A DNA stretch of 64,000 bases from Catenulispora sp. EB89 (GTDB lineage Bacteria; Actinomycetota; Actinomycetes; Streptomycetales; Catenulisporaceae): NCBI RefSeq assembly GCF_041261445.1, contig NZ_JBGCCU010000002.1, positions 434,001 to 498,000 of the forward strand, in the 5' to 3' direction. The translations under genes and the position numbers were made by a program. Within the stretch, counting starts at the first letter, position 1; each line of letters starts with the position of its first letter. Under the pieces are notes generated by a model that was given only the letters and a program-made list of their open reading frames with translations, had not been told where the DNA came from and made no database searches. Below, one piece after another: positions 1-15,079 of this stretch.

Positions 1-1971
1 GTGCGCGGCCATCGAGACGATCACGGCCTGCCCCGCGAGGTACGCCGCGCCACCCACGACGAAGCCCAACGGCGGCCATGCCAGACCACCCACCCGAGCG
101 ATACCACCGGCGGCCAGAACGAGCACGAGGACTTCGAGACTGACACCGGCGGCGGGTTCCCGGAGCTCGGCGGCCAGGCCGCTGGGAAGGACGGCCGCCG
201 GACTGAGCACAGCCGTCGCGTTGTAGACGGACATCGCCACGGCGCTGCGCCGCACACCGAGCAGGAAGCCGAGCGCGAGAGCGGTCGCGGCGAAGGCGAC
301 GCCGACGGCGGTGCCGGCGGGCAGGAGGCCGAAGAGCATCAGGAGCCCGGCGCCCGCGAGGCCGAGGAGAACGTCACGGAGGCCGCCGACGGGAAGGCGG
401 TCGGCGGCGACGGGATGGCGCCACCAGCGCGGGCGCGGCGCGGGCGGGGGCGGCAAGGTGGGCCGGTTCGGGTCGTGGGGCAGGGGCGAGTGCCAGGGTT
501 CTGCGGTGGGGAGCTGGAAGGTGATGGATGTGGGGGTGCGCTCGGGCGGGTGGGTGCCGGGCGGCGGGAGTTGATTCGGCTGGCCGCCATGCGCTGCGGC
601 ACCGGGAGAGCCCGATGGGCTGGCGGGCTCGGGCGACTGGATGGCTGGCGAATAGCGGGTCGGCAGGCCGGCGGTCTCTGAACCGGCGGACGAGCCGGAT
701 GCGGCAGCGGGCTCGGGCGGCTGGCTACCCAGCGGATAGTGGACCGGCGAGCCCGATGCGGTGGCGGACCCGGGCTGCTGGATGCCTGGCGAATAGCGGG
801 TCGGCAGGCCGGCGACCTCTGAACCGGCGGACGAGCCGGATGCGGTGGCGGACCCGGGCGGCTGGCTGCCGAGCGGATAGTTAACCGGCGGACCGGATGC
901 GGCGGCGGAGCCGGGCGGCTGGATGCCCGGCGCGGAGGTTCCGCTGTCGAGGCCGGCGGTCGCGAGACCGCCGGGCGGCACCGATGTGCCCCGCTGAAGT
1001 GGAAGAGCCTCGGTCGGCGAGGCCGCGTCCGTGCCGGGCACAGCTTTGCCGGGCACAGCTTTGGCGGGCGCCGCTTCAGTGGGTGCGCCGTAGAGCCGAT
1101 CGCCGGCCGGCTGCTCGGCTGCGTGGTGGCTGCGGCCGACCTGGATCAGGGTCGCGAGTTCGTCGGGGCGGACCGACCAGAGGGCGATGAGGTCGCGGGG
1201 TGTGGGTCGGTCGGCTGGTTCCTTGGCCAGGCAGCGCGACAGCAGGTCGCGGAATTCGTCGGGTACTCCTGCCAGCTGTGGCTCGCCGAATCTGGTGCGG
1301 TACATGCGGGCTTCCGAGGGTCCGGCGCCGAAGGGGCCGTGGCCCTGCACCGCGTAGACGAGGACTGCTCCCAGGGCGAACACGTCCGACGCGGTCGTGG
1401 CGCCGCGGCCTGCGATCTGTTCCGGGGACATGTAGCCCGGCGAGCCCAGGACCGAGCCGGCGCGGGTCAGGATGCTGTCGGTTTCGCGGCGGGCCAGGCC
1501 GAAGTCGATGAGTTTCGGTCCGTCGGGTGCGAGCAGGATGTTGTCCGGCTTCACGTCGCGATGGACCAGGCCCGCGGTTTCGAGTGCGGCGAGGGCGTCC
1601 GCGAGTCCTGCGGCCAGGGCCCGTAACGCGCGCGGGGGTATGGGTCCGGAGCTGCGGACCACCTCGCCGAGGGTGGGGCCGTCGATGAACTCGGCCGCGT
1701 ACCAGGGTTGGGGTGCGTCGGGGTCGGCGTCGAGGACGGCTGCCGTGAAGCGGCCGGTCACGGCCTTCGCGGCGCGGACCTCGCGGGCGAAGCGGCGGCG
1801 GTAGTCGGGGTCGGCGGCGATCTCCTGGTGGACCAGCTTCACCGCGACCAGGCGGCCGTCGGCCGCGCGCGCCAGGCACACCAGGCCCATGCCGCCGGAG
1901 CCGAGGCGGCCCAGGAACTGGTACGGCCCCACGCCGCGCGGGTCGCGCGCCCGCAACCGCTGCACGTTCAC
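1..1971 (-). CDS. Membrane-anchored serine/threonine protein kinase (PknB-type), 3' end outside window
   Basis: Hanks-type kinase in the first ~280 residues: glycine loop GSGGMG (about residue 24), VAVK lysine (~45), HRDVKPDN catalytic loop (~137), DFG (~156) and SPEQ. A Pro/Ser/Gly-rich linker follows, with two 47-residue tandem repeats and one partial copy, then several hydrophobic segments, so the kinase is probably cytoplasmic and anchored by C-terminal membrane helices. The frame is still open at base 1, so the gene continues beyond the window. I chose GTG at 1971, which leaves about 15 residues before GPYQFLG as in homologues; an in-frame GTG at 2034 is the alternative. It lies about 150 bp downstream of the VWA gene on the same strand and may be the last gene of that operon. 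Its substrates cannot be inferred from sequence. Confidence 0.9.
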   Translation of the reverse strand, partial: MNVQRLRARDPRGVGPYQFLGRLGSGGMGLVCLARAADGRLVAVKLVHQEIAADPDYRRRFAREVRAAKAVTGRFTAAVLDADPDAPQPWYAAEFIDGPTLGEVVRSSGPIPPRALRALAAGLADALAALETAGLVHRDVKPDNILLAPDGPKLIDFGLARRETDSILTRAGSVLGSPGYMSPEQIAGRGATTASDVFALGAVLVYAVQGHGPFGAGPSEARMYRTRFGEPQLAGVPDEFRDLLSRCLAKEPADRPTPRDLIALWSVRPDELATLIQVGRSHHAAEQPAGDRLYGAPTEAAPAKAVPGKAVPGTDAASPTEALPLQRGTSVPPGGLATAGLDSGTSAPGIQPPGSAAASGPPVNYPLGSQPPGSATASGSSAGSEVAGLPTRYSPGIQQPGSATASGSPVHYPLGSQPPEPAAASGSSAGSETAGLPTRYSPAIQSPEPASPSGSPGAAAHGGQPNQLPPPGTHPPERTPTSITFQLPTAEPWHSPLPHDPNRPTLPPPPAPRPRWWRHPVAADRLPVGGLRDVLLGLAGAGLLMLFGLLPAGTAVGVAFAATALALGFLLGVRRSAVAMSVYNATAVLSPAAVLPSGLAAELREPAAGVSLEVLVLVLAAGGIARVGGLAWPPLGFVVGGAAYLAGQAVIVSMAAH
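650..931. repeat. 141-bp tandem repeat (two copies) inside the kinase linker
   Basis: Copy 1 is 650-790 and copy 2 is 791-931. Each starts with GAATAGCGGG in plus orientation, and the period of exactly 141 bp (47 codons) keeps the kinase frame. Protein copies contain GIQ(Q/P)PGSA, YPLGSQPP and SSAGSE(V/T)AGLPT. A degenerate extra half copy lies between 600 and 650. The repeat lengthens the linker between the kinase domain and the membrane segments and could vary in copy number between strains. Confidence 0.85.
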
Positions 1972-2107
1972 GGCCGGCCACCGCCCCGGCGACGGCGGCC
2001 CGGCACCGCACTCATGTTCCCCCGCATAGCGCACACCGTATAAGCAGCGTGCGGCCGCGTCACCAGCGAGAGCTCACCTCGTTTGGCGACGCTCGCGACC
2101 GCCCCCT

Positions 2108-2147
2108 ACTTCTCCAGGAACTTGCTCACTTCTCCATGAACTTGCTC
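2108..2147. repeat. 20-bp tandem duplication across the VWA stop codon
   Basis: Two adjacent 20-bp copies (2108-2127 and 2128-2147) differ at one base. The upstream copy (minus strand) encodes the last residues SKFMEK and the stop. The second copy follows the TGA directly and is out of frame because 20 is not a multiple of 3. It looks like a local slippage duplication at the gene end. Confidence 0.85.
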
Positions 2148-3391
2148 AGATCCTGCCGCTGGATCGCCGCCGCCATCAGGTCCCCGAACCTGTCCGGCGT
2201 GCACGCGAACGCCGGCACCCCCAGCGCCGCCAGCGCCGTGGCGTTCTCGCGGTCGTACGCCGGCGCCCCCTCGTCCGACAGCGCCAGCAACACGATCACC
2301 TGCGTGCCGGCCGCCGTCATCTCCGCGACGCGGCGCAGCATCTCGCGGCGGACGCCGCCTTCGTAGAGGTCGGAGATCAGGATGAAGATGGACTCCGTCG
2401 GCCGGCTGATCAGCGACTGGCTGTACGCGATCGCGCGGTTGATGTCCGTGCCGCCGCCGAGCTGCGTCCCGAACAGCACGTCCACCGGGTCCGTCAGCTG
2501 CGGCGTGAGGTCCACGACCGCCGTGTCGAACACCACCAGCGAGGTCTTCAGCGACTTCAGCGACGCCAGCACCGCGCCGAACACCGACGCGTACACCACC
2601 GAGGCGTACATCGAGCCCGACTGGTCGATGGCGAGCACCACGTCGCGCTTCACCGCACGCTCCTTGCGCGCGTAGCCGACCAGCCGCTCGGGCACCACCG
2701 TCCGGTACTCCGGCAGGTAGTTCTTCAGGTTCGCCTGGATGGTGCGGCCCCAGTCGATGTCGCTGTGCCGGGGACGGCTGGTGCGCGTGCTCTTGTCCAG
2801 CGCGCCGCTGACCGTGGCGCGCAGCTTGGCGCCGAGCCGCTTCTCCAGGTCCTCGACCAGTTTGCGCACCACCTGGCGCGCGGTCTCCTTGGTCTCGGCG
2901 GGCATCAGGTGGTTCAGCGACAGCAGCGTGCCGACCAGGTGCACGTCGGGCTCGACCGACTCCATCATCTCCGGCTCCAGCAGCAGCTGGCGCAGGTTCA
3001 GGCGGTCGATGGCGTCGCGCTGCATGACCTGCACGACGGTCTGCGGGAAGTAGCCGCGGATGTCGCCGAGCCAGCGCGCGACCTGCGGCGAGGACGCCCC
3101 CAGGCCCGCGCTGCGCTGCGCCTGCTGCCCGCCGCGGCCCCGGCTGCGGCCGGTGACGGCGCCGCCGCCGGTCTCGTAGCCGCCCTTGTTGTAGAGGGCC
3201 GCCAGTGCCTTGTCCATCTCCAGGTCCACACCGGAGAGCTTGCAGCCGGTGCCGTCGTCGTCCCCGCCGAGGACCAGGCGCCAGCGCCGCATGCGCTCGT
3301 CGTCGGCGCTCCCGGCGCTCCCGGTGCTCCCGGTGCTCCCCGCACCGCCCGCGATACCCGCCGCACCTGCGGCTTCGAGCATGTCAGCCAT
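2126..3391 (-). CDS. VWA-domain protein with intact MIDAS (YehP-like), MoxR-associated
   Basis: This 421-residue protein has a Gly/Ser/Ala-rich N-terminus (to ~30), a helical middle region and a C-terminal von Willebrand A domain. The metal-ion site is complete: DQSGS (D256, S258, S260), T315 in LGGGTD and D341 in ISDLYEGG. No signal peptide is present, so it should be cytoplasmic. The start ATG overlaps the end of the DUF5682-like gene by 8 nt and has a GGGGAG ribosome-binding site inside it, so the two are translationally coupled. VWA proteins next to MoxR ATPases commonly act as metal-dependent adaptors that present targets to the ATPase; here that is inferred from family and context. It resembles E. 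coli YehP. Confidence 0.88.
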   Translation of the reverse strand: MADMLEAAGAAGIAGGAGSTGSTGSAGSADDERMRRWRLVLGGDDDGTGCKLSGVDLEMDKALAALYNKGGYETGGGAVTGRSRGRGGQQAQRSAGLGASSPQVARWLGDIRGYFPQTVVQVMQRDAIDRLNLRQLLLEPEMMESVEPDVHLVGTLLSLNHLMPAETKETARQVVRKLVEDLEKRLGAKLRATVSGALDKSTRTSRPRHSDIDWGRTIQANLKNYLPEYRTVVPERLVGYARKERAVKRDVVLAIDQSGSMYASVVYASVFGAVLASLKSLKTSLVVFDTAVVDLTPQLTDPVDVLFGTQLGGGTDINRAIAYSQSLISRPTESIFILISDLYEGGVRREMLRRVAEMTAAGTQVIVLLALSDEGAPAYDRENATALAALGVPAFACTPDRFGDLMAAAIQRQDLSKFMEK

Positions 3392-5735
3392 CCGACTCCC
3401 CCATCATCCCGAGCAGCATCCGCACGACCGGCAGCGCACGGTCCGCGCGCTCCCGGTCGAAGCCGGGCGGTTCGGCGCCGGCCGCGACCCCGGCCACCGG
3501 GGCCGAGCCGACGGTCCGCGCCAGCTCACCGATCTTGCGGCGCTCGGGGCCTTCGAAGTTCGAGAACGTGCGGCGCAGCAACGGCAACACGTCGGTGAAG
3601 GTGTCCGCGGGGATGCCCGCGATCCACCGGTCCAGCAGGCCCAGCAGCACCGGGTCGTGGATCAGCAGCATCGCGCCGCCGGACAGCACGCCGTCCAGCC
3701 AGGCCGCGGCCTCGGCCGGCGGCACGCCGGGGGTCAGCGCCAGGCCCATGCGGCAGTTCAGCTCGTCGCCGTCGATCTTGGCGGCGTCGTAGAGCAGCCG
3801 CAGCGCGCGCCCGGCGAGCAGCCCCGTCATCCCCTCGCGGTCGCCGACCATGCGCAGCGCACGGTGCCATTCCTCGGTCGCGGCCGGGTCGGCGAGCAGG
3901 CCGACGGCCTGGTGCGTGTTGTCCATCCGGACCCGCATCTTCTGCGCGCCGTCCTCGTCCAGGCCGGAGCAGGCCTGCGGGAAGCCGAGCGCGATGCGGA
4001 CCACCAGTGTGTCGGCGACCTTGCGCAGCGCCGCGGTGTCGGTGCCGCGCACATCCGTGTAGCGCAGGGTCCTGGCCAGCGCTGGCAGCGCGTCGGCGAG
4101 GTGCGCCACGTCGGTGTCCACCGCCGCGCGGTCGGCCAGCAGGGTCATGATCGGGTCCAGCGCGTCCGGCAGGTCGGCGAGCAGACAGGCCTCGACGACG
4201 TCGGTGATCCCGGCCAGCTGCTCGGCGTTCGCCGCGCGGTCCGCGGACTTCGCCGAGGCCGCGGTGACCACGGTGGTGCCCCAGATCGCGGCCTCGACCA
4301 GCTTCACCGCGAACTCCGGCTGCCAGTCCAGCGACCAGGTCTCCCAGAAGGTGCCGCTGCCCTGCGAGCGGCCCAGCGTGCCCCAGCCGATGCCGAGGAT
4401 GTTCAGCCGGTGCAGCAGGCGCGACTTCTCGCCCGGCGCGGTCTCGCGCAGGTCCAGCTTGACCTCGGTCTGGCCCGGCCTGGGCGCGAAGCGCAGCCGC
4501 TTCTGCTCGCGGGCCAGGTCCGCGGCCAGCGGCACCACCGGCACGTCCGGCGGCACCTCGCCGAGGTCCTCGCCGATCACCAGCTTGTCCCGGACCAGCG
4601 CCATCTGCGTGTCGTAGCCGCCGCACAGCACCGACTGCACGGCCTCGGTGACCTCGGTCAGCCCGGCCAGGGTGCGGCCGCGCAGCGTGGCCAGGGTCTC
4701 GGCCAGGCGGGTGGCCTCGATCAGGTGCGCGGAGGAGACCGGCAGGTCCTCGGCGCGGAAGAGTTCCGCGACGCGAACGAGCCAGCGTTCGACGACTTGG
4801 TCCGGCGCGGTGAACAGATGGTGGTACCAGCCCGGCGACTCGATGCCGGCGCCGTAGCCGGAACGGAAGGACAGGCGGCCGTGGGTCCACGGGACCCAGG
4901 TGGCAGTGGTCTTCGCCTTCTTCGGCAGCTCCTTGAGGATCTTGGCGTCCGGGGCGGCCGGGCCGATCTCGGCCAGCGCCGGGACGTGGAAGGCGCCGCA
5001 GATCACCGCGATGCGCCGGCGCCCGGCCTTGATCTCCTCGCGAATGCACTGGCGCATGTACGCCTCGCGCTGCTCGTCCTCGGGACGCGCCTGGTCGCGG
5101 ACCACGGTCATGGCGTCGGCGATCGCCGCGAAGGAGTCGAGGGCCGAGAAAGTGCCGTCGGCACGCTGCTCGACGACGTCTTCCCACCAGCGTTCCGGGT
5201 CGTCGTAGCCGGCGGCGGTGGCCAGGGCGGCGATCGGGTCGGTGCGCTGGATGTGAATAAGCTCGTCGACGTGCCGGGACTCTTCTTCCTCTTCGTGTTG
5301 ATGATCGCCGCTGGCAGCCTCGGCATCCTCGGGCTGATCCTCAGTTGCTTCATCCTTCGGGAGTACCGCGAATCGATGGCCCGAAGGAAGGTCGATGAAC
5401 CGAATCGGAACCGCCGCCTCGATGCCCCAACGCATCGCGACCCATTCCGGTGAGAACTCGGCGAAGGGCCAGAACCCGGCGCGCGAGGGATCGGCGTCGG
5501 CATAGACCAGCAGCGCGACCGGCGGGCGCATCGCGGGATGCGCGGCGAGCGGGATCAGCGCGTCGGCCTCCGGCGGACCCTCGATGAGGATCGCGTCCGG
5601 CTTCAGCTCCGCCAGCGCCGCCGCGACCGCGCGCGCCGAGCCCGGGCCGTGGTGCCGGATGCCCAGCAGCGTCACCGGCCCTGCCGCCGCCGCGCCGCCG
5701 GCGGCCGGCGCCGCCTTGGTGGCAGTGTCCGGCAT
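3384..5735 (-). CDS. DUF5682-like protein of the MoxR-VWA cluster, possible Tiki/TraB-type hydrolase
   Basis: The protein has 783 residues. The N-terminal ~260 residues carry GIRH (25-28), an acidic EGPPE motif (E52), IDLP (~114) and a second GxxH, GAFH (247-250), in VICGAFHVPAL. Two GxxH motifs plus a Glu are the hallmark I know for the Tiki/TraB/PrgY/EreA superfamily of metal-dependent hydrolases. An acidic His/Glu-rich stretch (~130-160) interrupts the domain. The remaining ~500 residues are helical with no motif I recognise. The start ATG overlaps the TGA of the MoxR gene by one base (TGATG); the 3' end overlaps the VWA gene. The family name is from memory and the enzymatic assignment is inference from motifs. 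Confidence 0.8.
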   Translation of the reverse strand: MPDTATKAAPAAGGAAAAGPVTLLGIRHHGPGSARAVAAALAELKPDAILIEGPPEADALIPLAAHPAMRPPVALLVYADADPSRAGFWPFAEFSPEWVAMRWGIEAAVPIRFIDLPSGHRFAVLPKDEATEDQPEDAEAASGDHQHEEEEESRHVDELIHIQRTDPIAALATAAGYDDPERWWEDVVEQRADGTFSALDSFAAIADAMTVVRDQARPEDEQREAYMRQCIREEIKAGRRRIAVICGAFHVPALAEIGPAAPDAKILKELPKKAKTTATWVPWTHGRLSFRSGYGAGIESPGWYHHLFTAPDQVVERWLVRVAELFRAEDLPVSSAHLIEATRLAETLATLRGRTLAGLTEVTEAVQSVLCGGYDTQMALVRDKLVIGEDLGEVPPDVPVVPLAADLAREQKRLRFAPRPGQTEVKLDLRETAPGEKSRLLHRLNILGIGWGTLGRSQGSGTFWETWSLDWQPEFAVKLVEAAIWGTTVVTAASAKSADRAANAEQLAGITDVVEACLLADLPDALDPIMTLLADRAAVDTDVAHLADALPALARTLRYTDVRGTDTAALRKVADTLVVRIALGFPQACSGLDEDGAQKMRVRMDNTHQAVGLLADPAATEEWHRALRMVGDREGMTGLLAGRALRLLYDAAKIDGDELNCRMGLALTPGVPPAEAAAWLDGVLSGGAMLLIHDPVLLGLLDRWIAGIPADTFTDVLPLLRRTFSNFEGPERRKIGELARTVGSAPVAGVAAGAEPPGFDRERADRALPVVRMLLGMMGESDG

Positions 5736-6859
5736 CAGGCGCTGACCTCGCGGCAGCTGCGGTAGAAGTCGCTCCAGCCCTCGCGGCCGCGCGCGACCGT
5801 CTCCAGGTACTCCTGCCACACCAGCTTGTCGGTCGAGGAGTCCTTCACCACCGCGCCGAGGATGCCGGCGGCCACGTCAGCGGGACGCAGCGTGCCGTCG
5901 CCGAAGTGCGCGGCCAGCGCGATGCCGCCGGCCACCACCGAGATCGCCTCGGCCGGGGACAGAGTGCCCGAGGGGGTCTTGAGCTTCGTCTTGCCGTCCT
6001 CGGTCAGGCCGCTGCGGAGCTCGCGGAAGACCGTGACCACGCGGCGGATCTCCTCGTGGGCCGCCGGGACCTCGGGCAGCTCCAGCGCCTTGCCGAGGGA
6101 CTTCACGCGCTGGGAGACGATCTCGATCTCCTCCTCGGCGGTCCCCGGCAGCGGCAGCACGACCGTGTTGAACCGGCGGCGCAGCGCGGAGGACAGGTCG
6201 TTGACGCCCTTGTCGCGGTCGTTGGCAGTGGCGATGACGCTGAAGCCCTTCTCCGCCTGCGTCTCCTCGCCGAGCTCGGGGATCGGCAGCGTCTTCTCCG
6301 ACAGGATCGTGATCAGCGTGTCCTGCACGTCGGCCGGGATCCGGGTCAGCTCCTCGATGCGGGCGATCGCGCCGGTGGCCATCGCGCGCATCAGGGGGCT
6401 GGGGACCAGCGCGTCGCGCGAGGGGCCGTGCGCCAGCAGCTGCGCGTAGTTCCAGCCGTAGCGCATCGCCTCCTCCGGCGTGCCGGCGGTGCCCTGGACC
6501 AGCAGCGTCGAGTCGCCCGAGATCGCGGCGGCCAGGTGCTCGGAGACCCAGGTCTTGGCCGTGCCGGGGACGCCGACCAGCAGCAGCGCGCGGTCCGTGG
6601 CCAAGGTGGCGATGGCGATCTCGACGATGCGCCGCGGCCCGATGTACTTCGGCGTGATGACCGTGCCGTCCGGCAGCGTCCCGCCGAGCAGATAGGTCGC
6701 GACCGCCCACGGCGAGAGCTTCCAGCGCGGCGGCTTCGGACGGCCGGAATCGGCGTCGGCCTTGCGCAGGGCCTCCAGCTCGCCGGCGAAGGCGTGCTCG
6801 GCGTGCAGGCGGAGAACGGTCGGCTGTGTCGCCTCGGCGGCAGCGGCGGTGTCAGACAT
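5735..6859 (-). CDS. MoxR-type AAA+ ATPase (YehL-like)
   Basis: This 374-residue AAA+ ATPase has Walker A GVPGTAKT (96-103), sensor 1 in VIATANDRDKG and an arginine-finger region LSSALRRRFN. The Walker B position reads AIARIEEL, with Glu where the usual Asp-Glu pair is expected, a variation seen in some MoxR relatives. I chose the ATG of MSDTAAAAE at 6859; an upstream in-frame start at 6901 would overlap the inverted repeat and lacks conservation. MoxR ATPases act as remodelling chaperones with VWA partners, which fits the genes downstream. Its stop codon overlaps the start of the DUF5682-like gene. Confidence 0.9.
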   Translation of the reverse strand: MSDTAAAAEATQPTVLRLHAEHAFAGELEALRKADADSGRPKPPRWKLSPWAVATYLLGGTLPDGTVITPKYIGPRRIVEIAIATLATDRALLLVGVPGTAKTWVSEHLAAAISGDSTLLVQGTAGTPEEAMRYGWNYAQLLAHGPSRDALVPSPLMRAMATGAIARIEELTRIPADVQDTLITILSEKTLPIPELGEETQAEKGFSVIATANDRDKGVNDLSSALRRRFNTVVLPLPGTAEEEIEIVSQRVKSLGKALELPEVPAAHEEIRRVVTVFRELRSGLTEDGKTKLKTPSGTLSPAEAISVVAGGIALAAHFGDGTLRPADVAAGILGAVVKDSSTDKLVWQEYLETVARGREGWSDFYRSCREVSA

Positions 6860-6882
6860 GGAAGGCAACTTTCGGATTTCGG

Positions 6883-6913
6883 CAAGGTGGCACCCACTCA
6901 AGAGTCCACCTTG
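6883..6913. promoter_or_regulatory. Inverted repeat upstream of the MoxR gene
   Basis: CAAGGTGG (6883-6890) and CCACCTTG (6906-6913) form a perfect 8-bp inverted repeat with a 15-bp spacer. It lies in the 103-bp gap between the DUF5691-like stop and the MoxR start. It could be an operator, or a hairpin that tunes expression of the three downstream coupled genes. Nothing else marks a regulator, so the role is open. Confidence 0.4.
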
Positions 6914-6962
6914 GGGGAAGGGTTCGGACAGAGTCCAGATCGTTGGACAGGGTCCGCCAGGG

Positions 6963-8579
6963 TTAAACGGAGTCCAGTTCGGCCAGCATCAGAGCCCGGT
7001 CCCGCAGCATCGCCGCGAGGTCGTCCAAGTCGTCGGCCCACAGCGGGAGCTCGGCGCGGATCTCCTCGGCCTTGGCCGCGACCGCGTCGCCGAACGACGG
7101 CGGCATCCAGCGGCCGGCCAGGTTGTCCATGCCGAAGAAGCGGGCCACGTCGTTGCGCGTGGCGTTCGGCAGGTAGGCCGGGATCGCGTCGAGCAGGGCC
7201 TGGCACACGGCGTCCGGCCAGGGCCGGCCCAGCCGGCTCAGGATGCTCGGGGCGCTGTGGATCGAGTACTGCGACCGGTGGCTCGCCACCACGCTCAGAC
7301 ACCAGCGCTCGGCGGCTTCGTCGGAGAGCAGTTCCAGCATGTCGTTGGAGGCGTTGACGGCGCAGAACGCCTCGGCCCAGCGGGTGTCCTTCTGGCGCAG
7401 CGTCGCCGAGCGCCAGCCGCGGTGGCAGGCGTTGGCCTCCCAGCGGTTGGCGGCCGTGGCGCGCATCAGTTCGGCGGGCGTCAGCTCGCAGTACTGCTCC
7501 CACGCGGACAGCGGGGTCGAGGCTATGAGGTCCTCCAGCCAGTACGAGGGCTGCATGCGGGCCAGCCGCCGCTCGTCCTCGGTCTGGACCCAGCCCTCGC
7601 CGATGCCGTCGCGGGTCTCGTCCTCGGTGGCCTCGTCCGGCTTGTCCTTCAGCGTGACCAGCACTTCGGCGTTCTTGGTGACCACCGTGACCCGCGCGTG
7701 CAGGCGGGCGACCATGCGCTCGGCGAACCGGGACGACGGCAGGGTGGCCAGCAGCCGGACCGCCTCGGCGCGCACCTGGCGCGATTTGTCGTCGAGGGCT
7801 GCTTCCAGGAACGGTTCGTCCTCCGGCCCGAGGCCCACGCCGAGCGCCTCGACAAAGGCCGCGCGGGTCTCGGCCGACAGGCCCCCCGCGCTCGACCCGA
7901 TCTGCGTCCAGGCCTCTTCCACCAGCTCGCGGGCCGAGGCCGGGTCCTTGCCGCGGAACCACGTCAGGTAGCCGATGCGCTCGTGCGGCTTGTCGGACTG
8001 CCAGGCCTCCGGGTCCGGGGCCGCGGCGTAGCGGGTGAAGGTCGACCACTGCTGGTTCTGCTTGGCCAGCCAGGTACCGCGCGGGCCGGCCAGCTTCATC
8101 AGGTCGGCGCGGACCGCGATGCTGCCCCGGGCGTAGTCGAACAGCGGCGGCAGGAGCTCGGCGGGGGCGCGACAGCCGGTCCTGGCGGCCGCCCCCAGGT
8201 ACTCCGGGAGCGCTTCGGAGCGGGACGCGACCAGCGCCGTCAGCCGGGCCGAGGTCGCGCTGGACAGCAGGGGACGCGCGTCCACCGCCGCCGACTTCGC
8301 GGCCGGCGCGGCGTCGTGGCCCGCTGCACCCTCGGTGACCTCTGCACCCTCGGCGTCCTGCTCGCCGACCAGCTCCGCGGAGTACGCCGAGCCGGCGTTC
8401 CCGGCCCGCCGCCACGCGCTCATGAGCGCGGCCGAGCTCAGCAGGGCGGCCGCGGGGCTGTCACCGGGCGCGGTGAAGTCTCCGGCGGCCGGCGGGGTGC
8501 GACGGTCGGTGCCGACCAGGGCCGTCGAGACAAGGTCCTGCCAGACCTCGGAGCCGGTCTGATTGGAGGCTTCGTTCAT
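6963..8579 (-). CDS. DUF5691-like protein of the MoxR-VWA-SWIM cluster
   Basis: This 538-residue soluble protein has no transmembrane segment or signal peptide. The N-terminus carries STALVGTDRR, which I associate with the DUF5691 family, and the rest is helical and Leu/Ala-rich, perhaps HEAT/ARM-like repeats (for example around GLGPEDEPFLEAALDDKSRQ). The start ATG at 8579 has GGTGAG five bases upstream. It sits between the SWIM gene and the MoxR gene on the same strand, separated from them by 169 and 103 bp. No catalytic motif is evident, so a scaffold or substrate-recognition role is only a guess. Confidence 0.75.
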   Translation of the reverse strand: MNEASNQTGSEVWQDLVSTALVGTDRRTPPAAGDFTAPGDSPAAALLSSAALMSAWRRAGNAGSAYSAELVGEQDAEGAEVTEGAAGHDAAPAAKSAAVDARPLLSSATSARLTALVASRSEALPEYLGAAARTGCRAPAELLPPLFDYARGSIAVRADLMKLAGPRGTWLAKQNQQWSTFTRYAAAPDPEAWQSDKPHERIGYLTWFRGKDPASARELVEEAWTQIGSSAGGLSAETRAAFVEALGVGLGPEDEPFLEAALDDKSRQVRAEAVRLLATLPSSRFAERMVARLHARVTVVTKNAEVLVTLKDKPDEATEDETRDGIGEGWVQTEDERRLARMQPSYWLEDLIASTPLSAWEQYCELTPAELMRATAANRWEANACHRGWRSATLRQKDTRWAEAFCAVNASNDMLELLSDEAAERWCLSVVASHRSQYSIHSAPSILSRLGRPWPDAVCQALLDAIPAYLPNATRNDVARFFGMDNLAGRWMPPSFGDAVAAKAEEIRAELPLWADDLDDLAAMLRDRALMLAELDSV

Positions 8580-8705
8580 GGTGCTCACCGCGCTTCCGCC
8601 GAGTAGGAGATCCCCACAGCCTTCGCACTGATGTCCACAGATTGTGCACCACGCCACTGACAACTTAGGGGGTCGGTGGCAATACCCTGAAATTCCCTAA
8701 TCACC

Positions 8706-8723
8706 GGGCCTCTACCGAGGCCC
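8706..8723. other. Small hairpin between SWIM and DUF5691-like genes
   Basis: GGGCCT (8706-8711) pairs with AGGCCC (8718-8723) in the 169-bp gap. There is no T-tract, so this may be an attenuator or RNA-processing site rather than a real terminator. The rest of the gap is less GC-rich than the neighbouring genes and could hold an internal promoter for the DUF5691-like gene. Confidence 0.3.
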
Positions 8724-8748
8724 TTCGCAGGGCTCTTCGCTGATCCGT

Positions 8749-10080
8749 TCACAGCGCGACCGCCGCACCCTCGGCCCACACGGTGAGCGGTTCCAGCCCC
8801 GCGTCGGTGTACTCGCCGAACACCGTCACCGGATGGCCGCCGGAGACCGCGAGCAGCCGCCACAGGGCGCTCTCCTCACAGATCAGCGGGACGCGGCGGC
8901 CCTCGGCGTCGGCGAGTTCGCCGTCCCGGTCCGGGACCGCGTCCGCGATCACCACCGGCCAGCCCTCCTGCCACGGATCGGTGGCCAGGGCGCCGGCGAA
9001 CGCGTCGGCGGCGGCCTGCAGGGTGCCTCCGGCCGGCGACGCCGGTGCGTCCCCGGGGTCGAGCTCCCCGGACTCCATCTGCGCCCGCAGCGGAAGCACT
9101 TCGGAGTGGAACACCATCTCGGCCCGGTAGACCGCGCCGACCGGCAGCGCGAGCGTCGGCGCCTGCTGCATGGCGCCGAACGCCAGCAGCATCGATATCC
9201 GGCCGCTGTCCGCGCCGCGCAGCCAGATCCGGCGCTCGGTGAGCTTGTCGGCCGCACGGTCCCGGGAGCCCAGGACGTGCCAGCGGTCGGCGACGCGCTC
9301 GCCGTCGCGGCGCACGGCGTCGGCGTCCACCGAGATCCCGATCCGCCGCCGCACGGTGTCCTGCATCGCCGGCGGCAGGTCGGGCAGCCGGGTCCAGGCC
9401 TGGCACAGCAGGTGCAGCCGGGCGAACTCGGCCAGGACGGCGTCCGGCCAGGCGTCGCCGGAGGAGGAGCGCGCGGAGGTCAGGGTCCGTACCCGGCCCG
9501 CGACACCCGGCGCCTGCGCGTCCACCAGCCGCTTGGCGACCGGGTCGACGGCGCCGTAGGACAGCGTCCCGGAGTCGCTGATGCCGGCCGCGATCTGGTC
9601 GGTGAGCCAGCGGTCGAGGTCGGCCAGGCCGTTGCCGATCCGCTCGGCCCGCTGCGCGGCGCGCTTGGCCGCCCCCTCGGGATCGGCGGCGGCCTTCTCG
9701 GCCTTGGCGGCACTGCGGGCCGCGGACTTCTCGGCACGGTCCCGCCGGGAGTCGGCCCACGCCTCGACCCGCTCCGGCGGCGCCTCGGCGGCGGCGATCG
9801 TGTCGGCCGCCCACAACAGCAGCAGGCCCAGGGCGTGCTTGCACGGGAACTTCCGACTGGGGCACGTGCACTGGTAGGCGGTGTCCGAGTCGGCCACGGA
9901 GACCGTGACCTGGTACGGCTTGCTCCCGCTGCCCTTGCAGTCCCCCCACAACAGCCGCTCGGCTTCCAGGTACCCGGTGCCCGACCACGGGCCCGGAACC
10001 CCGAGCTTCGCACCCGCCTTCTGCGAGGCGGCGTCCGGGGCCAGAGAGTTGACCTGGGCGGCGGTCCAACGTTCTGCCAT
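8749..10080 (-). CDS. SWIM zinc-finger protein (YehQ-like)
   Basis: This 443-residue protein carries a canonical SWIM zinc finger, CxCx6CxH (C71, C73, C80, H82, in CTCPSRKFPCKH). The N-terminal MAERWTAAQV and the PWSGTGYLEAERLLWG region are typical of actinobacterial SWIM proteins. An Ala/Glu/Lys-rich segment (~110-150) is likely helical. The start at MAERW (10080) is preferred over the in-frame codon three residues upstream. SWIM domains bind nucleic acid or protein; here the gene heads the DUF5691-MoxR-DUF5682-VWA series, the same gene types as E. coli yehL/M/P/Q. Function unknown. Confidence 0.88.
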   Translation of the reverse strand: MAERWTAAQVNSLAPDAASQKAGAKLGVPGPWSGTGYLEAERLLWGDCKGSGSKPYQVTVSVADSDTAYQCTCPSRKFPCKHALGLLLLWAADTIAAAEAPPERVEAWADSRRDRAEKSAARSAAKAEKAAADPEGAAKRAAQRAERIGNGLADLDRWLTDQIAAGISDSGTLSYGAVDPVAKRLVDAQAPGVAGRVRTLTSARSSSGDAWPDAVLAEFARLHLLCQAWTRLPDLPPAMQDTVRRRIGISVDADAVRRDGERVADRWHVLGSRDRAADKLTERRIWLRGADSGRISMLLAFGAMQQAPTLALPVGAVYRAEMVFHSEVLPLRAQMESGELDPGDAPASPAGGTLQAAADAFAGALATDPWQEGWPVVIADAVPDRDGELADAEGRRVPLICEESALWRLLAVSGGHPVTVFGEYTDAGLEPLTVWAEGAAVAL

Positions 10081-10186: not shown

Positions 10187-10594
10187 TCAGGCCGCGTGCG
10201 CGAGGTTCGCGTCCACCCAGTCGATGATGTCCTGCGTCGGCGTCCCCGGCGTGAAGATGGCCACGACCCCCATCTCCTTCAGCGGCTCGAAGTCGGCCTC
10301 GGGGATGATGCCGCCGACGAACACCTTGATGTCGGAGGCGTCCTTCTCCTTCAGGATCTCGATCACCTTCGCGCACTGCGTCATGTGCGCTCCGGACAGG
10401 ATCGACAGGCCGATGGCGTCGGCGTCCTCCTGGATCGCGGTGGCGACGATCTGGTCGGGCATCTGGTGCAGCCCGGTGTAGATGACCTCGACGCCGGCGT
10501 CGCGCAGGGCGCGCGCCACCACCTTCGCCCCGCGGTCGTGCCCGTCGAGGCCGGGCTTCGCGATGACGACGCGGACCGGGGCTGACTGGCTCAT
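10187..10594 (-). CDS. Stand-alone B12-binding protein, acyl-CoA mutase small-subunit type (IcmB-like)
   Basis: This 135-residue cobalamin-binding domain has DxHxxG (D17, H19, G22), LSILSG and the VGGIIP turn expected of the methylmalonyl-CoA mutase C-terminal fold. The length matches separate small subunits such as isobutyryl-CoA mutase IcmB (~136 residues). The ATG at 10594 has a strong GGAGG site 8 bases upstream. No large mutase subunit is nearby, so the partner must be encoded elsewhere. It reads toward the SWIM gene with a 106-bp gap and could share a transcript with it. Confidence 0.9.
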
Positions 10595-10898
10595 GGCGGC
10601 TGCCTCCATTGGGTGTCCACGGGAAGATCTTCTTTGATCGCCCATAACCGGTTCACACAGTAGCCGACCTGGGATGGCGGCCTGGACCGTCCCGCGTTGT
10701 GACGGTCCGCACAATCTCCGTGAGGATCATCGGACTTCCTGCGAGAACGCCAGTGAACCATGTGCAAAGGGCGCGCAAAGTCCACCGAACCGTTGTCCGT
10801 CCAGCCCTCGAGGCGCTAAAGTCGCGACTCGATAACGGCGCTGTCCCCGCTCCGTTTGATGATCGGCTGTCCCACGTTCCCAGGAGGTATTGGCCGTC
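10595..10898. other. Divergent intergenic region
   Basis: About 300 bp between the B12-binding gene (minus) and the M23 peptidase gene (plus). It must hold both promoters. I see the peptidase ribosome-binding site AGGAGG at 10882-10887 but no convincing -10/-35 pair, hairpin or riboswitch. Short open frames on both strands lack coding character. Confidence 0.5.
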
Positions 10899-12595: not shown

Positions 12596-15079
12596 TCAGA
12601 GCTTCTGCACCGGAGCCATCGTCAGCAACAGCGTCCGCACCCCCGACGACCCGAAGTCGATCGTCGCCTCGTCCCGCTCGCGGCCGCTGACCGCGACCAC
12701 CGTGCCCATGCCGAACGAGTCGTGGATGACGCGGTCGCCCGGGTCCAGCGAGATCACCTTCACCGGCCCCTTGCGCTGCTGGAAACCACGCGTCGTGCCG
12801 CGGCGGTCACCGAACGGCGAGCGCTCGGCGGTCTTGGGCTCCGGCGCCGTGCGCTCCCACTCGACCAGGTTCTCCGGGATCTCGCCGAGGAACTTCGACG
12901 GCGGGTTGTACTGCGGGGCGCCCCAGGCCGAGCGGTAGACGGAGCGGGAGACGTACAGCTGCTCACGGGCGCGGGTGATGCCCACGTACGCCAGGCGGCG
13001 CTCCTCCTCCATCTCCTTCTTGTCACCCATGGAGCGCATGTGCGGGAAGACGCCGTCCTCCATGCCGGTGAGGAACACCACCGGGAACTCCAGGCCCTTG
13101 GCGCTGTGCAGGGTCATCAGCGTGACCATGCCCTCGTGGTCCTCGCCGTCCGGGATCTGGTCGGAGTCGGCGACCAGGGCCACGCGCTCCAGGAACTCCG
13201 GGAGCCGGCCCTCAGGCTGGGCCTGCTCGAATTCCAGGGCCACGGCCAGGAGTTCGCGGAGGTTCTCGATGCGGGTCTCGTCCTGCGGGTCGTCGGAGTC
13301 CTGGAGCTCCTGCAGCAGACCGGTGCGTTCCAGTATGGCTTCCAGGACGTGTGCGGGCCCGTACTCGGCGGCCAGCTCGCGCAGCTCGTCCATCATCTGC
13401 GTGAAGCCCTGGACGGCCTTCACCGAGCGCGCGGCCAGCGCCGGCGCCTCGTCGGCGCGGCGCAGGGCGTCGGCGAAGGAGATGCGGTCGCGCGCGGCCA
13501 GCCGCTCCAGCGACTCCTCGGCCTTCTCGCCGATGCCGCGCTTCGGCGTGTTCAGGATGCGCCGGACCGAGACGATGTCGTCCTCGTTCGCCAGCGCGCG
13601 CAGGTAGGCCAGCGCGTCGCGGACTTCCTTGCGCTCGTAGAAGCGGACGCCCCCGACCACGCGGTAGGGCAGGCCGACGCGGACGAAGATTTCCTCGAAG
13701 ACCCGGGACTGCGCGTTGGTGCGGTAGAACACCGCGACGCCGCCGTACGTGGTCTCCTTGGCGTCGGAGAGACGGTCGATCTCCTCGGCCACGAACTGCG
13801 CCTCGGAGTGCTCGTCGTCGGCGACGTAGCCGGTGATCAGCTTGCCGTCGCCGGAGTCCGTCCACAGGTTCTTCGCGCGGCGGCCCTTGTTGTTCTCGAT
13901 GACGGCGTTCGCCGCGGACAGGATCGTCTGCGTGGAGCGGTAGTTCTGCTCCAACTTGATGACCTTGGCGTCCGGGTAGTCGCGCTCGAACTCGATGATG
14001 TTGCGGATCGTCGCGCCGCGGAAGGCGTAGATCGACTGGTCCGCGTCGCCGACCACGCACAGCTCGGCCGGGGGCAGCTCCTCGGCCGCCGCGCCCGCGT
14101 CCTCGGCCGGGCCGCCGCCGACCAGGTCGCCGTCCGCGGTGCGCTTCTTGTGCTGCCCGACCAGCTCCTTCACCAGCTGGTACTGCGCGGTGTTGGTGTC
14201 CTGGTACTCGTCCACCAGGATGTTGCGGAAGCGGCGGCGGTAGTGCTCGGCGACCATCGGGAACGCCTGGAGCAGGTGCACCGTGGTCATGATGATGTCG
14301 TCGAAGTCCATCGCCTTGGCGGCGGTGAGCCGGTCGGAGTACATCCGGTAGACCTGCGCGAGCTGGCGCTCGGCCTCGGTCTGCGCACGGCTGGAGAAGG
14401 TGTCGTGGTCGACCAGCTCGTTCTTGAGCTTGGAGATCTGGCCGAGCATCGAGCGCGGCGTGGTCTTCTTCGGGTCGATCTCCAGATCGCGCAGGACCAT
14501 GGTCATCAGGCGCTGGGAGTCGGCGGTGTCGTAGATCGAGAAGTTGCTCGGCAGGCCGGCGGTCTTGGCCTGGGCGCGCAGGATCCGGACGCAGGCCGAG
14601 TGGAAGGTCGAGACCCACATCAGCCGGGCCCGCGGGCCGACCAGTTCCTCCACCCGCTGGCGCATCTCGGCGGCGGCCTTGTTGGTGAAGGTGATCGCCA
14701 GGATCGAGCCGGGGTGCGCGTGCCGCTCGCCGACCAGGTAGGCGATGCGGTGCGCGAGCACGCGGGTCTTGCCCGAGCCGGCGCCGGCGATGATCAGCAG
14801 CGGTCCGCCGGCGTGTAGGACGGCCTCGCGCTGCGGCTCGTTCAGGCCGTCGAGGAGCTTGCGCGCGGCGGCCGACTCCTCCGGCGGGACCCACGCGTCC
14901 TCGGGCTCCTCCCAGCCGTCCCAGCCCGCGCGCTCGGCGTCGGCCTCGTCGGCCCACGCCGGTGGTTCGGGCAGCGTGCGGTCGGTGTGCCGCTCCTCGC
15001 CCGACCCTCGCTGCTCCCGGATCTCGTCGAGCATCGGAAACAACGGCAGGGCACCTGGGGCGAAGAGGGAAGAACTCAC
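12596..15079 (-). CDS. pcrA: ATP-dependent DNA helicase PcrA/UvrD (superfamily 1)
   Basis: This 827-residue SF1A helicase has Walker A AGAGSGKT (~102), ITFTNKAA (motif Ia), VDEYQDTN (motif II), GDADQSIYAFRGA (motif III), QNYRST (IV), TLHSAKGLEF (V) and VGITRARE (VI). The C-terminus ends in a short Tudor-like region typical of actinobacterial PcrA. It unwinds DNA in nucleotide-excision repair and clears replication or transcription conflicts. The GTG at 15079 has only weak ribosome-binding sequence overlapping it; an internal ATG at 15034 is possible. The acidic N-terminal ~70 residues are lineage-specific. It stands alone, convergent with the peptidase gene. Confidence 0.95.
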   Translation of the reverse strand: MSSSLFAPGALPLFPMLDEIREQRGSGEERHTDRTLPEPPAWADEADAERAGWDGWEEPEDAWVPPEESAAARKLLDGLNEPQREAVLHAGGPLLIIAGAGSGKTRVLAHRIAYLVGERHAHPGSILAITFTNKAAAEMRQRVEELVGPRARLMWVSTFHSACVRILRAQAKTAGLPSNFSIYDTADSQRLMTMVLRDLEIDPKKTTPRSMLGQISKLKNELVDHDTFSSRAQTEAERQLAQVYRMYSDRLTAAKAMDFDDIIMTTVHLLQAFPMVAEHYRRRFRNILVDEYQDTNTAQYQLVKELVGQHKKRTADGDLVGGGPAEDAGAAAEELPPAELCVVGDADQSIYAFRGATIRNIIEFERDYPDAKVIKLEQNYRSTQTILSAANAVIENNKGRRAKNLWTDSGDGKLITGYVADDEHSEAQFVAEEIDRLSDAKETTYGGVAVFYRTNAQSRVFEEIFVRVGLPYRVVGGVRFYERKEVRDALAYLRALANEDDIVSVRRILNTPKRGIGEKAEESLERLAARDRISFADALRRADEAPALAARSVKAVQGFTQMMDELRELAAEYGPAHVLEAILERTGLLQELQDSDDPQDETRIENLRELLAVALEFEQAQPEGRLPEFLERVALVADSDQIPDGEDHEGMVTLMTLHSAKGLEFPVVFLTGMEDGVFPHMRSMGDKKEMEEERRLAYVGITRAREQLYVSRSVYRSAWGAPQYNPPSKFLGEIPENLVEWERTAPEPKTAERSPFGDRRGTTRGFQQRKGPVKVISLDPGDRVIHDSFGMGTVVAVSGRERDEATIDFGSSGVRTLLLTMAPVQKL

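Follow-up and report, generated by a model that had tools for sequence, protein, structure and literature searches.

The pairs NorQ/NorD, CbbQ/CbbO and CoxD/CoxE are thought to mature their own enzymes. MoxR ATPases are described, in the accessible part of PMC3893208, as maturing specific complexes. E. coli carries a related set of genes, yehLMPQ, whose DNA was found in 5311 of 5426 complete genomes of the species, yet the literature searched offered no functional account of it. What does such a set do? A set of this kind lies in the window, by which we mean the whole stretch of 64,000 nucleotides of Catenulispora sp. EB89 DNA that was analysed.

The set comprises five genes at 2126-10080 on the minus strand, in the order SWIM, DUF5691, MoxR, DUF5682, VWA (Table 1). 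A preliminary description of the sequence had read them as five same-strand genes of these families, and Pfam bears it out. It was also right that the last three genes overlap by 1-8 nt: MoxR ends on a stop that shares one nucleotide with the start of DUF5682 (TGATG), and the overlap of DUF5682 with VWA spans 8 nt (3384-3391). Between SWIM and DUF5691 lie 169 nt if DUF5691 starts at the ATG at 8579, or 85 nt if it starts at the TTG at 8663; DUF5691 and MoxR are 103 nt apart. Because these two gaps are real, coupled translation is suggested for MoxR, DUF5682 and VWA only. The MoxR protein has the Walker A motif GVPGTAKT and a Walker B ending in EE, and the VWA protein keeps the MIDAS letters DQSGSM, GGGTD and SDLYEG; the EE and the intact MIDAS had been described at first. 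Walker B and MIDAS were scanned in 148 loci, short and overlapping ones included. Walker B ended in EE in all 133 loci where the pattern matched, a pattern that also accepted DE, DD and ED, and the MIDAS pattern matched in 116 of the 148. The Cys/Cys/Cys/His residues of the SWIM finger are invariant across six aligned relatives. The DUF5691 protein gave a sub-threshold, HEAT-like match (HEAT_2 in Pfam, 1.9e-4, 22.1 bits, cut-off 27.7).

Table 1. The five genes of the set and the two genes beside it in the window.
Feature	Position	Strand	Description
Kinase-like membrane protein, downstream	1..2034	-	open frame running off the window; outside the system
VWA protein, CoxE type	2126..3391	-	421 aa; PF05762 (VWA_CoxE) 1.7e-51 (Pfam); MIDAS intact (alignment)
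DUF5682 protein	3384..5735	-	783 aa; PF18934, E 8.9e-276; N-terminal part (about residues 20-300) TIKI/TraB-like
MoxR AAA+ ATPase, YehL type	5735..6859	-	374 aa; PF07728 (AAA_5) 1.9e-39; alignment; tree
DUF5691 protein	6963..8579	-	538 aa from ATG 8579; alternative TTG 8663; PF18944 6e-116
SWIM zinc-finger protein	8749..10080	-	443 aa; PF04434 5.7e-7
B12-binding protein, upstream	10187..10714	-	PF02310 5.6e-29; syntenic neighbour, outside the system

Do the five genes belong together? Of 63 Actinomycetota loci spanning 20 kb or more, 62 carry all five. DUF5682 occurs in 21 of 296 genomes of the phylum and DUF5691 exceeds its cut-off in 18, all 18 of them inside the 21 (Fisher p 4.7e-26, without correction for shared ancestry and leaving out three more genomes with sub-cut-off DUF5691 matches and without DUF5682). 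The five-gene order is kept in Deinococcus and Rhizobium, and Methylosinus keeps it for the first four genes. The preliminary description had proposed that the five form one set and had made rare co-occurrence across genomes the argument against it; co-occurrence is common and the set stands. The five genes belong together, in several unrelated bacterial groups. In 52 of the 63 loci the SWIM-DUF5691 pair runs divergently from the MoxR-DUF5682-VWA genes, and therefore the constant unit is the MoxR-DUF5682-VWA triple rather than a five-gene transcript. Joint production, as claimed earlier, is suggested for the three overlapping genes; one transcript for all five is not supported.

The actinobacterial locus has stable B12/PcrA neighbours, the B12-binding gene adjoining the set in 55 of 63 loci. 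On the other side, the protein at 1..2034 has a hydrophobic stretch (KD19 2.23), and its kinase label was given by eye from the sequence. This membrane kinase had been put forward as a sensor for the set. We reject that role, as the neighbour is not conserved: a kinase-like match occurs in only 3 of 63 loci, and neither of the two Catenulispora loci among the 63 shows one.

The loci were sorted into four architectures, types A-D, of which the window's genome holds three. Of 17 paralogue or relative stretches fetched (types A-D), 16 do not run into a contig end, and in all 16 the core triple stands together. In type C, DUF5682 and VWA are fused in one frame, and the same fusion is found in a Streptomyces type A locus (L054). 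SWIM-like and DUF5691 parts are also fused (Hymenobacter, L134), the SWIM-like part being recognised there by our own profile only, with no match to the Pfam SWIM model. The fusions fall within these two pairs. In locus L146 the frame matches no Pfam family, and DUF5682 there rests on other profile and locus matches. SWIM proteins of types B and C score 18.6, 19.5 and 16.6 bits, just under the Pfam cut-off of 19.6. The other architectures have DUF4132 proteins or other large proteins in place of the large protein of the SWIM/DUF5691 arm. Are these large proteins related? In profile-profile comparison, DUF5691 reached P 0.21 against DUF4132 and 0.54 against a 638-aa Fusobacterium protein, and the type C large protein reached 0.41 against DUF4132 and 0.36 against DUF5691. 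By sequence, there is no sign of kinship among the large proteins of different architectures.

The preliminary description had called E. coli yehL/M/P/Q a similar set, and this was confirmed. It belongs to one architecture, type B, and starts with a WGR-DUF4132 gene; the identity of the window proteins to their E. coli counterparts is 38% for MoxR, 34% for VWA, 25% for DUF5682 and 19% for SWIM. In a MoxR tree whose sampling lay outside RavA and the named MoxR subfamilies, one branch (85/91) set 26 MoxR proteins of the system apart from 9 further AAA proteins in the genome. E. coli YehL groups with the other system MoxR proteins, and assignment to the YehL subfamily holds both by sequence and by neighbourhood (DUF5682, VWA and SWIM genes). 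Locus L140, labelled type B, branches outside the B clade in the same tree.

What could DUF5682 contribute to the core? The TIKI/TraB/PrgY superfamily is defined by two GxxH motifs and an intervening Glu. All of these are present in the N-terminal domain of DUF5682: H28, E52, G247 and H250 in every one of the 138 rows that have a letter there, and G25 in 132 of 138. Of the 140 rows, 137-138 have a letter at the signature positions, and H28, E52, D115, R223, E224, G247 and H250 never vary among them. TraB turned up in 1 and ChaN in 0 of 100 genomes of the phylum, so PrgY proteins for comparison were taken from Enterococcus plasmids. With hhalign, a profile of 16 DUF5682 N-domains matched a profile of five PrgY/TraB proteins at P 1.4e-5 (probability 80%, 229 columns), in a register where both GxxH motifs and the E, D and R-D/E residues coincide; the P-values of these matches are those of single comparisons. 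Seven non-Actinomycetota rows alone gave P 1.8e-7 (probability 94%), type B rows alone 1.9e-5 and type C rows alone 2.9e-4. The seven type A Actinomycetota rows alone gave 9.6e-4 and type D rows alone 0.027, and therefore the evidence is stronger elsewhere than in the window's own clade. Masking both GxxH motifs left P at 2.1e-4 and the register unchanged; when the E52 block was masked as well, P was only 0.046. The controls stayed weak: the best P-values in two sets of 60 column shuffles were 0.026 and 0.11, the reversed profile gave 0.44, and against PrgY/TraB the C-terminal part of DUF5682 gave 0.87, MoxR 0.13, VWA 0.34, SWIM 0.66 and DUF5691 0.65. Two GumN-type proteins reached P 0.23 against DUF5682, and PrgY against the same two reached 0.39, so this comparison does not discriminate.

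From this alignment, the DUF5682 N-terminal domain is likely homologous to PrgY/TraB of the TIKI superfamily of putative metalloproteases, a resemblance that is new here and that the preliminary description had missed. Pfam family PF01963 (TraB_PrgY_gumN) was weakly matched by 2 of 10 N-domains, the best at 14.8 bits against a cut-off of 26.8; because the score is below the cut-off, we do not file DUF5682 in that family, only as a likely distant homologue. Searches of solved structures with the DUF5682, VWA and SWIM profiles gave no match or chance-level matches, and so no relative of DUF5682 by sequence. PrgY is described, in the accessible part of PMC7117660, as a membrane peptidase resembling the Tiki metalloprotease. 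Proteolysis is not proven for every TIKI relative, and the invariance of six of the seven signature residues fits an enzyme but a metal- or ligand-binding structural domain as well.

How might the parts work together? Our preferred reading, which we find plausible and hold tentatively, is that a MoxR-VWA motor remodels chosen proteins for DUF5682, which would act as a TIKI-type peptidase, while SWIM and an interchangeable large protein select the targets. MoxR would form an AAA+ ring with its EE Walker B, and with VWA as its MIDAS adaptor it would carry out remodelling driven by ATP. DUF5682, which would come from the overlapping message they share, would be the third part of the constant core. 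Its N-terminal domain, if of TIKI/TraB fold, may bind a metal through H28, E52 and H250, and DUF5682 would cut or otherwise hydrolyse what the ring presents; proteolysis is proposed here from the TIKI/TraB resemblance. SWIM and DUF5691 would be the target-choosing arm, swapped elsewhere for DUF4132 or other large proteins. The preliminary description had proposed that the VWA tunes the ATPase and that targets are chosen through SWIM or DUF5691; both may hold. A bolder version, which we consider rather doubtful, makes DUF5682 the proteolytic subunit in a hitherto unrecognised class of ATP-dependent protease, in which the MoxR ring and VWA adaptor unfold targets set by SWIM and the exchangeable large protein, and the TIKI-type metalloprotease receives them. 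Such a protease would exist as YehLMPQ in E. coli, and the window's genome would have three versions of it.

One alternative is that DUF5682 is the client, matured by MoxR-VWA (for example by metal insertion) and then doing some hydrolytic job. The VWA is of CoxE type, the MoxR resembles NorQ and midasin by sequence (and weakly, far under the cut-offs, GvpN and MadB), a possible metal site is kept in DUF5682, and the maturation of specific complexes noted above (PMC3893208, in part) fits as well. However, this leaves the SWIM and the large DUF5691/DUF4132-type protein that accompany the triple without explanation, and the type C fusion better suits a standing complex. We regard it as somewhat unlikely.

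Could the set instead be a conflict system, anti-phage or self-killing, with DUF5682 as effector, comparable to the MoxR-vWA ternary systems that Kaur et al. 2020 describe? The grammar of MoxR, VWA and a third protein is the same as in the accessible part of that paper (PMC7159879), one genome carries several versions, and some copies are plasmid-borne, one adjoining a type I restriction gene set. This role is not favoured, and appears improbable to us, because yeh DNA is near-universal in E. coli, the actinobacterial B12/PcrA neighbours are stable and no PADLOC model of a known anti-phage system matched any of the five window proteins. Moreover, DUF5682 at type A scores occurs in 16 of 16 genomes of one genus (labelled g4), no relative was found on viral contigs with the type A patterns, and Pfam finds no additional effector domain in the window VWA.

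A DNA-damage response machine, in which SWIM, and WGR-DUF4132 in type B, recruit the core to damaged DNA or its proteins, is quite improbable. The WGR-DUF4132 gene does head the E. coli set, with a one-mismatch LexA-like box 9 nt before it (L150:4508-4523), and the accessible part of PMC8533742 describes MolR as LexA-regulated and the D. radiodurans relatives DR2173 and DRA0166 as rising upon DdrO depletion. But the E. coli box is one of nine one-mismatch matches where 5.4 are expected by chance, with no perfect match, and DR2173 and DRA0166 may sit apart from any MoxR core. None of 77 actinobacterial loci has a GAAC-N4-GTTC box in the 500 nt upstream of MoxR; no such box lies near the window set either, and LexA control of it was rejected. 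The adjoining B12-binding gene suggests a chaperone for B12-dependent acyl-CoA mutases, a role that is very improbable and was rejected: the gene is missing at the Amycolatopsis, Actinomadura and Nocardiopsis loci among the 63 and has no annotated counterpart next to the Deinococcus, Rhizobium, Methylosinus, Hymenobacter and E. coli sets, and therefore chromosomal synteny suffices as an explanation. Accidental adjacency, for which the 169 and 103 nt gaps that set SWIM and DUF5691 apart from the core could be cited, is refuted by the co-occurrence counts and the order kept in Deinococcus and Rhizobium, and its probability is negligible.

The TIKI/TraB assignment offers the first testable chemistry for a yeh-type set, in residues, metal and substrate. 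Should the core prove to cut proteins, it would count as an AAA+ protease distinct from the classical ones; should it not, the assignment would still show what a MoxR-VWA pair of this subfamily serves.

How does the set compare with known systems? RavA-ViaA and NorQ/CbbQ share a MoxR AAA+ with a VWA partner; to our knowledge those pairs have no DUF5682-like third protein, and the sequence similarity of the window MoxR to NorQ is modest. The MoxR-vWA ternary systems (VMAP, iSTAND, FtsH, beta-propeller), as far as the accessible part of PMC7159879 describes them, likewise join MoxR and VWA to a third conserved protein and occur in several versions per genome, whereas here the third protein is DUF5682 and the partners are SWIM and DUF5691/DUF4132. 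No mention of YehL, SWIM or TraB was found in that part of the paper, and of the third components only bpMoxR matched on the five proteins, over 51 residues at 23.1 against a cut-off of 27 (Pfam; VMAP and iSTAND not by name). DUF5682 lines up with TIKI/TraB/PrgY proteins at the GxxH, E, D, R-D/E and GxxH residues; in contrast to them it is soluble by hydropathy, far longer and associated with an AAA+ ATPase, and its score stays under the Pfam TraB cut-off. E. coli yehLMPQ differs in having SWIM last instead of first, DUF4132 proteins for DUF5691 and an identity of only 19-38%, while it shares MoxR, DUF5682, VWA and SWIM in one row, the EE Walker B and the same side of the MoxR tree.

The five genes of the set form a unit in which MoxR-DUF5682-VWA is the constant core, and the set is conserved well beyond the window. 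As the preliminary description had read them, the last three genes are tightly packed, the MoxR stop and the DUF5682 start having one base in common and DUF5682 and VWA overlapping by 8 nt; the changed Walker B of the MoxR protein (EE) was confirmed, with the nucleotide site intact, as was the intact MIDAS of the VWA protein. No strongly hydrophobic stretch was found in the five proteins (highest 19-residue mean 1.73).

Genes of the set and its neighbours in the window
Gene	Position	Strand	Remark
SWIM	8749-10080	minus	
DUF5691	6963-8579	minus	
MoxR	5735-6859	minus	
DUF5682	3384-5735	minus	
VWA	2126-3391	minus	
B12-binding protein	10187-10714		stable chromosomal neighbour where the set occurs in Streptomyces and Catenulispora
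PcrA/UvrD helicase	12596-15079		stable chromosomal neighbour where the set occurs in Streptomyces and Catenulispora

Do the five genes keep together elsewhere, as had been proposed for checking? A genome scan with a DUF5682 alignment gave at least 571 relatives among at least 594 pattern matches. The analysis continued with the best 80 of these relatives, every one of which is listed as an Actinomycetota organism or bin; 63 of their loci, of at least 20 kb, were counted for completeness, and the remaining 17 are interrupted by contig ends. All five genes are present in 62 of the 63, the sole exception being L065, where DUF5691 lies outside the stretch and SWIM at its edge. Ten loci have the layout of the window, and in 52 DUF5691-SWIM is divergent from MoxR-DUF5682-VWA. 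A B12-binding gene adjoins the set in 55 and pcrA is near it in 42, many stretches ending inside pcrA. Among the matches listed, the nearest named relatives are Catenulispora (90-91% DUF5682 identity). At one Streptomyces chryseus locus (L054:8983-12705), of the window's architecture, DUF5682 and VWA are one open frame, possibly by a sequencing error. Outside the phylum, 8 plasmid records with DUF5682, out of 36 records, were examined. The gene order of the window is kept in those of Deinococcus and Rhizobium. Methylosinus OB3b has the first four genes in this order, and its copy looks broken, since the VWA frame (L036:10217-11328) is split in three, with insertion sequences nearby. In Hymenobacter one frame comprises SWIM-like and DUF5691 parts, and the Fusobacterium order is SWIM, a 638-aa protein, MoxR, DUF5682 and VWA; the 638-aa protein (L040:4935-6848), in the usual place of DUF5691, has no Pfam match.

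DUF5682 starts with LLGIRHHGPGSA...LIEGPPEAD and has REAYMRQCIR...VICGAFHVPAL further on. Because these motifs are reminiscent of TraB/PrgY, the two were compared. The Pfam TraB model matched weakly one of 8 whole proteins (E 0.18) and 2 of 10 N-terminal domains (about residues 20-300; best E 0.026, 14.8 bits, below the cut-off of 26.8). A profile of 16 N-terminal domains matched a profile of 5 PrgY/TraB proteins with P 1.4e-5 and probability 80% over 229 columns, aligning H28, E52, D115, R223, E224, G247 and H250 with H21, E45, D120, R191, D192, G212 and H215 of pCF10 PrgY. As controls, four other profiles of the system gave P 0.13-0.66, the DUF5682 C-terminal part 0.87 and a reversed profile 0.44, and the best of 60 shuffles was 0.026 for the PrgY profile and 0.11 for the DUF5682 profile. 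Subsets gave P 1.8e-7 for 7 rows from outside Actinomycetota and 9.6e-4 for 7 type A rows from within, and by architecture 1.9e-5 for type B, 2.9e-4 for C and 0.027 for D. The match had P 2.1e-4 with both GxxH masked, 2.8e-3 with the E52 block masked, 1.4e-3 with eight signature residues masked and 0.046 with both GxxH and the E52 block masked; the N-terminal strand-helix-strand region contributes most to it. The 140 DUF5682 rows include overlapping loci and the window itself. Among them, H28, P31, E52, R223, E224, M227, G247 and H250 are identical in all 138 with a letter and D115 in all 137, with variation at positions 25 (132 G, 6 P) and 27 (134 R, 4 C). By profile comparison, DUF5682 thus has a PrgY/TraB-like domain with invariant polar residues.

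The core occurs in four architectures. Type A is that of the window. Type B (Iodobacter, E. coli, contig C17) has DUF4132 proteins, then MoxR-DUF5682-VWA, then SWIM; the C17 set (L133), which includes two DUF4132 frames, resembles that of E. coli. In type C (contig C51, Streptomyces atratus), DUF5682 and VWA are fused, MoxR is preceded by a protein of 1640-1833 aa, and a SWIM-like protein comes after the core. The 1833-aa frame of C51 (L132:12761-18259) has no Pfam match whatever, and its 1640-aa counterpart in S. atratus is annotated as DNA-binding. Type D (four genomes) has the order VWA-MoxR-DUF5682 and weak DUF5682 scores. As C17 and C51 belong to the window's genome (11.9 Mb), three of the types, A, B and C, occur together in this genome. 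A MoxR tree with 35 rows has a branch (85/91) that parts the 26 rows of the system from the 9 remaining ones, which are other AAA proteins of the window's genome. Types A (12 rows, 99/97), B (4 rows, 100/100), C (4 rows, 100/100) and D (4 rows, 99/100) form separate groups, which indicates that the versions are old and parallel; Fusobacterium goes with A (94/92) and locus L140 stands alone. In E. coli, a LexA-like box with one mismatch (L150:4508-4523), alone not above chance, lies just before the WGR-DUF4132 gene heading the set.

Is the system used for defence or for upkeep? Of 5426 E. coli genomes, 5311 have DNA matching yehLMPQ, and in 5155 the match covers 80% or more of the query; DUF5682 reaches type A scores in 16/16 genomes of one genus among the relatives, and the B12-binding and pcrA neighbours are stable. 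This stable presence argues for upkeep and against a defence role. On the other hand, DUF5682 has plasmid copies and is patchy across Actinomycetota: of 296 genomes sampled evenly over the phylum it is present in 21, and DUF5691 is over the cut-off in 18, all of them among the 21. A link to DNA damage (PMC8533742) is a lead only.

How might the proteins work together? The current view of MoxR-VWA pairs is that they remodel the proteins they bind (PMC3893208, PMC7159879). In this set, a target would be brought by SWIM and DUF5691, presented by the MoxR ring and VWA to DUF5682, and cut by the latter as a putative peptidase. The gene overlap and the fusions of DUF5682 with VWA speak, though not decisively, for a standing complex rather than a client relation. 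No mention of DUF5682 or DUF5691 was found in the literature searched, which included few subscription papers, and the papers found for MoxR, vWA, SWIM and TraB combined were, judged mainly by title, not about this gene set. The assignment of DUF5682 to TraB may therefore already exist elsewhere, for example in the Pfam clans. Among known systems, seven MoxR subfamilies are distinguished, YehL being one (PMC3893208), TIKI proteins are putative metalloproteases (PMC12329661), and PrgY has been described as a membrane peptidase like the Tiki metalloprotease (PMC7117660).
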